Assembly: GCA_001600355.1 (NCBI GenBank)
Contig: BCJU01000001.1
Coordinates: forward strand, 1-64,000
Direction of reading: 5' to 3'
From: Meira nashicola
Taxonomy: Eukaryota; Basidiomycota; Exobasidiomycetes; Exobasidiales; Brachybasidiaceae
DNA: 64,000 bases
Below the pieces are notes generated by a model. That model saw only the letters and a list, made by a program, of their open reading frames with translations, did not search any database and was not told where the DNA came from. Made by a program: the position numbers and the translations under genes. Shown here in pieces: positions 2,508-16,065 of this stretch; within the stretch, counting starts at the first letter, position 1; every line of letters starts with the position of its first letter.

Positions 2508-4001
2508 ATGTTTTCATATCTTGGATCGGATCAAATTATTTTGGTAGCATGTTTAGCTTGCTTAGCAATCTTCTTTCGCTTCACCTTTACGAAATTTAAC
2601 AAGCAAGTAGAAATACATTCTGAAAAGCCAGTACGCAAGATCGTTCGCAACAGATATTGGTCAATTCCAGATGCTCAATCTTATCGTACAATTTGTTCAA
2701 CAGAATCTCCCAAATTTCGACCTTTTCGATATGGAGATTATAAAGTGACAATGGGAATTCGTTTTATACCTGAAGTTCAATGGTTCGAACTTTATAAATC
2801 TTATCCGGCATATATACGTTTACGTCAATTACGACACCAAACCAAAGGAAAAGAATGTTGCGATATCGTTTCACATCCTAAACAAAGGAATACAATAGCA
2901 GCTCTAGAAGTAGCTCGAAGTATTTCAGCTTATTTAAGCGCTCGTTATCCAGATCTTTTCGAAATAGAATTATGTAAAGAAGCCAAAGATGCCGGAAATT
3001 TTGGTGAAAATGTTCGTGCTATAAAGCGTTTAAATTGCAAAGATGGTATCAATTTACCTTTTAAAAGATGGCCTTTACCAAATATTGACGATAAAATTGC
3101 TTTACAATCAGAACAAATCGATCCTACTTTGTACAATCCGATGGCAGTAGCAGGAGAATTGGTTCCTGACGATTTGGCTTTACTTTTACCTGATGATGAC
3201 GCAATTCCCGATGAAAGAGGAGCTTTACAATATAGACTTATCGCTGGTAGCATTTGTACTGCAGGATTTTGGCGATTACGTGATAAATTGAATTGTACTT
3301 TGCAAGAAATTCATACGTCAGGCAAAGTTCCGCAATTTGCTGAAAGACTTCGTGATCCTTTAGATAGATTTTTCACAAAGATGGAAGCGGGAAGCGATCG
3401 TTTATCCGAAAGGAATAATTACTTTTTCCAAGTAGTTCGAAAAGAAGATTCGATGAATAAAGTATATCAATTGCGAGATGGTACATTAATACCTGACGTT
3501 TTAAACGATTCCAATTCATCCATAAAAGAGCAACAATTAAACGATCAAACGGAATTGACTTGGGGCTTAAGTACAAACGGTCCTGAACATCTTTATGACG
3601 CTTCAACAAAAGGTCCAAAAGAAGAAGCAGGAACGATAAAAGTTGATTCAACATTCGGACCAGTAGATCTTTCGATGCCGATTCAAAGGCCACAAGATTT
3701 GGTAATGCGAACTGAAAGGCAAACATTAAGAAAGTTGCCTAAAAGTGGCGCAGTTTTATTCACAATTCATACGCATATGGTTCCAATCGAAATTATGGCA
3801 AAAGAGCCTGGCATACCTGGTAGATTAGCATATGCAATGCGCAATTGGCCTGAAGATGTAGCCTGGTATAAAGCAGCTTCTCTTTATCGAGAAATCGTTT
3901 TACCTTTTTTAGATCAAGCTCATCAAGATCAAATCCGATCTGGTATAATCACAACGCAAGAAGCCGAAGAAGAGCGAAGTAAGAAATCGTATCCGTTTTA
4001 A
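2508..4001 (+). CDS. heme-dependent oxidative N-demethylase-like (DUF3445), membrane-anchored
   Basis: A 497-residue single-exon protein. Residues about 8-27 form a hydrophobic anchor. The rest matches the fungal DUF3445/HDOD family in pattern: an N-terminal block with FRPFRYGDYKVTMG and an early arginine-rich tract, a central PDDLALLLPDD segment, and a C-terminal block with FTIHTHMVPIE and RLAYAMRNWPEDVAWYK. Known HDOD enzymes remove N-methyl groups from dimethylamine using heme and other cofactors. In fungi the family is common and mostly uncharacterised. Heme binding and the substrate are inferred from the family only. The membrane anchor suggests a cytosol-facing domain on an internal membrane. 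Confidence 0.8.
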   Translation: MFSYLGSDQIILVACLACLAIFFRFTFTKFNKQVEIHSEKPVRKIVRNRYWSIPDAQSYRTICSTESPKFRPFRYGDYKVTMGIRFIPEVQWFELYKSYPAYIRLRQLRHQTKGKECCDIVSHPKQRNTIAALEVARSISAYLSARYPDLFEIELCKEAKDAGNFGENVRAIKRLNCKDGINLPFKRWPLPNIDDKIALQSEQIDPTLYNPMAVAGELVPDDLALLLPDDDAIPDERGALQYRLIAGSICTAGFWRLRDKLNCTLQEIHTSGKVPQFAERLRDPLDRFFTKMEAGSDRLSERNNYFFQVVRKEDSMNKVYQLRDGTLIPDVLNDSNSSIKEQQLNDQTELTWGLSTNGPEHLYDASTKGPKEEAGTIKVDSTFGPVDLSMPIQRPQDLVMRTERQTLRKLPKSGAVLFTIHTHMVPIEIMAKEPGIPGRLAYAMRNWPEDVAWYKAASLYREIVLPFLDQAHQDQIRSGIITTQEAEEERSKKSYPF

Positions 4002-15091: not shown

Positions 15092-16065
15092 CTATGCATC
15101 GTTCCAGAACGAATCAACGCTCTCCCCTTGCCCGTTACCTTGTCCCACATTAACGTATGAACTCAAAGAAATTTTCGATTCATCATGTTCTATAACATCT
15201 CTTGTGCTCGTTTGATCATTCACTAAAGCAGCCGATTCAAGACATTGTGCTATCCACAAGTTCTCTTCGACTAGTGACATTGTAGCGTCCGTAGATGATG
15301 AAGTAAAGCAGAACGGCGTCGTAGACGTCGATGAAATGGATTCCGTCTCCGTATTCTCAAATTGTGATCCTTCGTTTGTATCGATGCTGCTGCCGATTTG
15401 AGAGTGTGCTGCAATGCTATCGAAATCTCTTTCACTGAATCCGTTTGACAATTGTCCGATGAAGTCAAAGCCTTTGCACTCATCATAAGCCAAGATAGAA
15501 TCCATGCCCGCTGCAGGGCACTCATCTGTTCATGATGATTATCATGAAAGTTGAATGTCACCTCCTCTGCTGGGAGGCAAGCATGGGAATCGTATATACT
15601 TTGCTGCTGATGAGATGGTGATTGGATGCAAGGCTTTGATATGGTCTCGGAAGATTGCGTTTCAGATTTGGAAAGGAGATCGACAGGTAAATGTACATTC
15701 TCTCTTGGCGCTGCGACCGACGAAGGATCTGATTGAGATGTTGAAGATAGATTCTGGTTCATCAATAAAGTCTTGACTAAACCTTCTAATGTTCGAACAC
15801 GTTCTTCCAATTCTGCTTTTTCTGCACGTAATTGATTCGATTCTTGTTCCAATTCAGATACGTGTTTTTTTTTTCTATCACGACTCTTTTGAGCGGAAAC
15901 ACGATTACGAGCGGCACGAGCTGCAAGACGAACAGCTCTTTCTGGATCTACCGATCGTAATTTGAGAGCTAATTTGGTCTCATAGCCTTTTGTCGAACTG
16001 TTTGATGATGAAGATGTTGACCGGGCATCATCATCATCTGTGTAAGGAGGTGAAAGGTAGGACAT
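15092..16065 (-). CDS. Hac1/Cib1-type bZIP transcription factor of the unfolded protein response
   Basis: The unspliced reading frame runs 16065-15271 (264 residues). The spliced form uses 16065-15570 plus 15513-15092 (305 residues). The basic region lies at about 48-68 (AARNRVSAQKSRDRKKKHV) and a perfect heptad zipper at L72, L79, L86, L93, L100. The border between the two frames is a 56-nt non-GT-AG segment (15514-15569) flanked by Ire1-type hairpins, described separately. Hac1, XBP1 and the smut fungus Cib1 are activated this way: ER stress activates Ire1, which cuts the mRNA, and the new C-terminus gives the active factor. The spliced tail is acidic and Ser/Thr-rich, with DSFWNDA at its end, and fits an activation domain. 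The unspliced tail has a hydrophobic stretch and Arg clusters. Confidence 0.9.
15505..15520 (-). promoter_or_regulatory. 3' Ire1 splice-site hairpin
   Basis: TGCCCTGCAGCGGGCA forms a stem of TGCCC with GGGCA around the CTG|CAGC site, with cleavage between 15514 and 15513. The innermost C-G pair may be open in the Ire1-bound form, giving a larger loop that contains the heptamer CUGCAGC. Confidence 0.82.
15514..15569 (-). other. 56-nt unconventional (Ire1-type) intron
   Basis: On the minus strand the segment begins CAGAGG and ends CCCTG, so it is not a GT-AG intron. The 5' cut falls in CAG|CAGA and the 3' cut in CTG|CAGC; both fit CNG|CNGN. Its length is 56 nt (2 mod 3). Excision converts CCA-G to CCA-GCA-GCG-GGC-ATG-GAT and enters, exactly in phase, the ORF that stays open to 15092. 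Confidence 0.9.
15560..15578 (-). promoter_or_regulatory. 5' Ire1 splice-site hairpin
   Basis: GCCTCCCAGCAGAGGAGGT folds into a six-pair stem (five Watson-Crick plus a terminal G-U) closing a 7-nt loop CAGCAGA. Cleavage is expected after the third loop base, between 15570 and 15569. The 7-nt loop is the form Ire1 recognises in HAC1 and XBP1. Confidence 0.88.

Follow-up and report, generated by a model that had tools for sequence, protein, structure and literature searches.

The window analysed here, a stretch of 64 kb of DNA from Meira nashicola, carries on its minus strand a bZIP gene that is very probably the orthologue of HAC1, XBP1, HXL1, and cib1 in this Exobasidiales fungus. Based on its sequence, we consider it highly likely that the transcript of this gene undergoes a predicted Ire1 cleavage followed by Trl1-type ligation, losing 56 nt and yielding a 305-residue activator. 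An Ire1-type intron in a Hac1/Cib1-like bZIP gene had already been proposed in a preliminary description of this DNA, and this reading is favored by the heptamer hairpins at both borders, the restoration of one continuous frame, conservation at the protein level among relatives, and the presence of both Ire1 and a ligase in the genome.

The bZIP frame runs from the ATG at 16065 to the stop codon at 15273–15271 on the minus strand, resulting in an unspliced product of 264 residues. As described before, a second open stretch in another frame of the same strand (15529–15092) overlaps it out of phase. Excision in silico of positions 15569–15514 (56 nt) fused both frames and exactly reproduced the 305-residue protein with the C-terminal end DSFWNDA predicted earlier; the last base of exon 1 is 15570, and the first base of exon 2 is 15513. 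Of the features of the class, the gene displays the bZIP frame, CNG^CNGN loops at both intron borders (with ^ marking the cut), and an alternative C-terminus upon excision. The features of the locus are as follows:

15570–16065, minus strand: first coding exon, which contains the bZIP domain (frame; Pfam matches)
15757–15942, minus strand: bZIP domain (Pfam bZIP_1, E 2.3e-10; bZIP_2, E 2.6e-8)
15560–15578, minus strand: predicted 5' cleavage hairpin GCCTCC(CAG^CAGA)GGAGGT (sequence, folding)
15514–15569, minus strand: predicted 56-nt Ire1-type intron (frame joining; boundary residues kept in homologues)
15505–15520, minus strand: predicted 3' cleavage hairpin TGCC(CTG^CAGCG)GGCA (sequence, folding)
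15092–15513, minus strand: exon 2, in the frame read after the 56-nt loss, with its stop at 15094–15092 (70% identical product P0008)
15271–15569, minus strand: intron and the tail behind it, translated as residues 167–264 in continuation of the exon-1 frame when the mRNA is unspliced, with the stop at 15273–15271 (conserved in P0002–P0006)
15577–15586, minus strand: exon-1 arm CCATGCTTGC of a possible zipper formed with exon 2 (folding)
15502–15511, minus strand: exon-2 arm GCGGGCATGG, the partner in the same 10-bp pairing (folding)
15463–15507, minus strand: peak of hydrophobicity in the unspliced protein, 15 residues (187–201), AWILSWLMMSAKALT (hydrophobicity ranking)

The 5' hairpin was found at 15578–15560 just as claimed earlier, with the stem GCCTCC/GGAGGT around the 7-nt loop CAG^CAGA. 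For the 3' hairpin, the site and its fit to CNG^CNGN held, while the suggested 5-bp stem TGCCC/GGGCA with the whole of CTG^CAGC as its loop did not: this stem takes up the first C of the heptamer and leaves a loop of 6 nt. If the heptamer stays fully unpaired, a stem TGCC/GGCA remains, with a loop of 8 nt instead of 7. A scan for CNGCNGN in hairpins with a stem of at least 4 bp and a loop of 7 nt, or with one extra 3' base, revealed 11 hairpins in the window, 4 on one strand and 7 on the other. Three hairpin pairs were 15–300 nt apart, all of them within the bZIP gene. The earlier argument that two hairpins together with frame restoration are unlikely to arise by chance is borne out, as only the pair at 15569–15514 joins frames in the 64-kb window, and none of 2000 dinucleotide shuffles of the 663-nt region following the bZIP domain yielded a pair that shifts the frame in the same way. 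Likewise, no such pair was detected at 11 other bZIP_1 loci (about 3.1 kb each, both strands; match E up to 0.001, eight of them above the Pfam family cut-off). Taken singly, the hairpins were only modestly unusual, with 29 and 34 of 1000 shuffles folding equally well. CAGCAGA occurs at 3541 places genome-wide and is uninformative, and a search against Rfam resulted in no match.

Homologous proteins were collected in a set of at least 18 members, including the window's own P0001; in part of the searching, about 8000 candidates sharing the most words were scored. The closest named protein among the matches listed was P0004 from Meira miltonrushii (Exobasidiales, Ustilaginomycotina; FA14DRAFT_94769, 266 aa), which represents an unspliced frame and shares 86% identity with the spliced query across 54% of its length. 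In the gene, frame 0 encodes the 5' heptamer as Pro-Ala-X and the 3' heptamer as X-Gln-X. An alignment of orthologues, as called for in the preliminary description, agreed at the protein level for most members: both boundary motifs fit in 14 of the 18 proteins examined, all with unspliced-type frames reading PA(E/V/A) ... (L/P/Q)Q(R/C), whose codons can spell CNGCNGN at both ends. Since codons for E, V, and A begin with G, and L, P, and Q can be encoded by CNG, these residue differences fall on the N positions only; judged from the relatives' protein sequences, this conservation is one of potential heptamers. The remaining four proteins comprise P0007 with the 5' half only, P0008 with the exon-2 frame only, and P0016 and P0018 with a spliced-looking junction. 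In P0007 from Exobasidium rhododendri, the 5' motif was present and the 3' motif absent, and BLASTP of the exon-2 frame against its tail gave no match.

The implied introns measured 56 nt in six Meira-like proteins and 53, 44, 44, 38, 35, 26, 20, and 20 nt in the others. A second pairing of motifs was allowed in six of the 14 proteins, and a cruder script chose earlier Pro-Ala sites in P0010 (116 nt) and P0013 (62 nt). A loose form of the motif pair also appeared in 701 of 7000 shuffled tails, and because the 14 proteins are related, we attach no probability to the conservation of the motifs. Directly 3' of the 3' heptamer, the window has a G. The 14 unspliced homologues must share it, since the second base of every Arg and Cys codon is G, so that these genes may have a C-G pair across the 3' loop in common.

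A conventional spliceosomal intron, e.g., from GTATAT at 15599 to CTGCAG at 15511 (89 nt), would produce the same frame shift, as 89 and 56 are both 2 modulo 3, and such a donor and acceptor do occur in the sequence. Nevertheless, the residues spanning this donor are SIY in P0001 and P0004 but STY, STN, STS, and STS in P0002, P0003, P0005, and P0006, respectively, so that GTATAT could not be kept across the Meira-like relatives, though GT alone could stay; this comparison covers P0001–P0006, while the more distant homologues are known as protein only. Furthermore, the pair P0015/P0016 described below fits a loss of 20 nt, which is too short for a spliceosomal intron. Altogether, we regard conventional splicing as very unlikely.

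Conservation of the second frame, as the preliminary description had proposed to check, was found in P0008. This protein, encoded on a contig of 654 bases, has its start at the first ATG in exon 2. It shows identity in 81 of 116 aligned columns, with 61 of 78 ahead of the unspliced stop and 20 of 32 beyond it, where the unspliced frame has already ended. A single DNA sequence can encode P0005 in the unspliced frame and P0008 in the exon-2 frame across all 83 overlap codons, while the best other pairing among P0001–P0007 reached 41 codons; thus, both most likely derive from one and the same gene of a second source. Apart from that, P0015 and P0016 are identical in 216 of 229 residues up to the junction at ...HPA and diverge afterwards. 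The last 61 residues of P0016 are readable in a shifted frame of the gene of P0015, in accordance with a 20-nt loss between the heptamers. The two proteins have the appearance of an unspliced and a spliced product from similar genes, and we infer that P0016, encoded on a contig of 1191 bases, derives from a spliced transcript.

These relatives also bear on the view that the transcript is not spliced at all, the 264-residue frame being the sole product and the second frame accidental. In favor of this view, the unspliced tail shows conservation of its own (66 of 80 residues in comparison with P0005), and the sole named entry of the Meira group, the M. miltonrushii protein, is unspliced. However, an accidental frame is hard to reconcile with the identity retained past the unspliced stop, with boundary residues kept in 14 of 18 proteins, and with the spliced look of P0016, which makes this view highly improbable. 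Programmed ribosomal frameshifting instead of RNA excision would connect two long overlapping frames such as those present here, but it leaves unexplained both the two Ire1-type heptamer hairpins flanking the 56 nt and the residues missing from P0016 relative to P0015, and we give it hardly any credence.

With regard to the enzymes needed for an Ire1-type reaction, the genome harbors Ire1 as an uninterrupted frame of 1292 codons with kinase and Ribonuc_2-5A domains. Domains RNA_lig_T4_1 (PF09511, E 4.3e-85) and tRNA_lig_CPD (PF08302, E 3.4e-20) were identified on C4, 1.1 kb apart, in an order that we take to be the Trl1 arrangement; each was reported within a 955-aa open frame, and the ability to join RNA is read from the presence of the domains. 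Under ER stress, Ire1 would cut both loops, between 15570 and 15569 and between 15514 and 15513, and the Trl1-type ligase would then join the exons. The loss of 56 nt would shift the frame, so that the 98 residues following residue 166 would be exchanged for a tail of 139 residues, completing a transcription activator of 305 residues. Cleavage, ligation, stress dependence, and activator function are properties that we infer from the named families.

Folding of both hairpins, a further check put forward earlier, showed that both can form, though not as the optimum. In an RNA of 176 nt, the two-hairpin form reached -49.5 kcal/mol compared to -50.3 kcal/mol for the optimum (0.8 above), because the exon arms compete for the same bases; pair probabilities in free folding were 0.15–0.36 for the 5' hairpin and 0.03–0.10 for the 3' hairpin. 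For a piece of 106 nt (15594–15489), 12 of 200 shuffles folded equally well. In the optimum, CCATGCTTGC of exon 1 pairs with GCGGGCATGG of exon 2 over 10 bp, resembling the "RNA zipper" of XBP1. As a side aspect, the joined RNA would keep this 10-bp stem (15577–15586/15502–15511) with the junction in its loop, a structure that rivals the cleavage hairpins. Shuffles as stable as the exon zipper were obtained in 6, 43, and 104 of 500 cases with flanks of 20, 25, and 30 nt, respectively, and 14 of 1000 shuffles equaled the exon-arm duplex, so that pairing beyond chance is suggestive only. For an intron/5' UTR pairing of the S. cerevisiae type, taking 335 nt upstream as the assumed leader, the best duplex (-26.0 kcal/mol) did not exceed the control, as 111 of 159 control pieces paired equally well.

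Six Meira-like proteins retain the unspliced tail and have the C-terminal CH and the stop in common (15271–15513 of the window, minus strand), and identity to the five relatives in frame 0 of the overlap ranged from 56 to 67 of 80 residues. Constraint was estimated from the DNA of the window and the DNA inferred from P0005/P0008 (78 codons, five third positions unresolved), i.e., from one pair of sources with about 30 changes. Frame-0 positions 1, 2, and 3 showed 4, 9, and 14 changes, respectively. In a simple class model with a transition weight of 2, the unspliced frame had an omega of 0.22 (p 0.0006; bootstrap range 0.07–0.46) and the exon-2 frame one of 0.37 (p 0.046; 0.11–0.93). At weights of 1, 3, and 5, p was 0.0001, 0.0015, and 0.0042 for the unspliced frame and 0.014, 0.084, and 0.15 for the exon-2 frame. 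The third frame, serving as control, revealed omega values of 0.76–1.58 (p >0.4, weights 1 to 5), and with the control frame included, p over the same weights was 0.0001–0.027 for the unspliced frame and, marginally, 0.012–0.35 for the exon-2 frame. In frame 0, changes in the first and second codon positions among the five relatives revealed no significant difference between the overlap (14:33) and exon 1 with the bZIP domain (22:30; Fisher p 0.22). Overall, protein-level constraint in the overlap appears to act on the unspliced frame and, with less clarity, on the spliced one. This suggests that the unspliced product has a function, as has been put forward for XBP1.

Just behind the 3' site, each of the six Meira-like proteins has its 15-residue stretch of highest hydrophobicity, and this HR2-like segment is also the top hydrophobic stretch in P0014, P0015, and P0017. 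In P0009–P0013 it is not (ranks 13, 72, 54, 16, and 22), which weakens the case for a general role. The unspliced tail of P0017 contains a membrane-span-like stretch, ITLLLISLILLSVLI. As a tentative and rather doubtful idea, the mRNA retaining the 56 nt might be more than a precursor in this clade, and the unspliced tail might be a selected protein whose hydrophobic segment takes the translating mRNA to the ER membrane near Ire1, acting as a fungal, perhaps convergent, counterpart of HR2 in XBP1u. If true, the idea would hint at how mRNAs of basidiomycetes reach Ire1, among them that of HXL1, in which the bipartite 3' UTR element of the yeast type is reported as not detected (PMC3154848). Roles of the unspliced form have already been advocated for XBP1 and for hacA of A. 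fumigatus (PMC7580959) and proposed for U. maydis cib1 (PMC6988420, PMC8071499), so that a functional unspliced form is not new in kind.

The gene belongs to an already known class of Ire1-spliced genes. In C. neoformans, ER stress is reported to trigger the Ire1-dependent removal of a 56-nt intron from HXL1, as detected by RT-PCR (PMC3154848). Thus, the length of the Meira intron is not new, and the earlier designation as a new length variant has to be dropped, though the stated size of about 65 nt for the U. maydis cib1 intron proved right (65 nt; PMC8071499). HXL1 is also described as a basidiomycete bZIP gene with CAG at both intron borders, predicted stem-loops there, and a C-terminus altered by splicing; unlike the Meira gene, whose splicing is predicted and which is likened to it by description, it has an extra conventional intron of 55 nt (PMC3154848). 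As with cib1, the gene encodes a Hac1-type regulator of the Ustilaginomycotina with an unconventional intron (PMC8071499, PMC6988420, PMC6918084), which by description measures 65 nt in cib1 compared to 56 nt here (PMC8071499). Metazoan XBP1 shares the CNG-type Ire1 loops and a mildly hydrophobic unspliced segment but is reported with a 26-nt intron and RtcB ligation, in contrast to the predicted 56 nt and the Trl1-type ligase encoded in this genome (PMC6624018, PMC9472280). Ascomycete HAC1/hacA likewise displays hairpins with CNG^CNGN at both intron borders, with reported introns of 20–26 nt in filamentous species, 19 to 848 nt in CTG-clade yeasts, and 252 nt in budding yeast (PMC8071499, PMC6222058). 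In a narrow search of the literature by genus name, no paper on the Meira version of the gene was found.

For the public gene model of M. miltonrushii (P0004), which carries the unspliced frame, our analysis means that the predicted active factor is missing from it, and the gene model is corrected accordingly. Beyond this species, 14 unspliced frames with implied introns of 20–56 nt in one phase make Ire1 sites traceable in protein data. Finally, the overlap of two frames with signs of constraint makes the role of the unspliced fungal product testable in a non-model basidiomycete.
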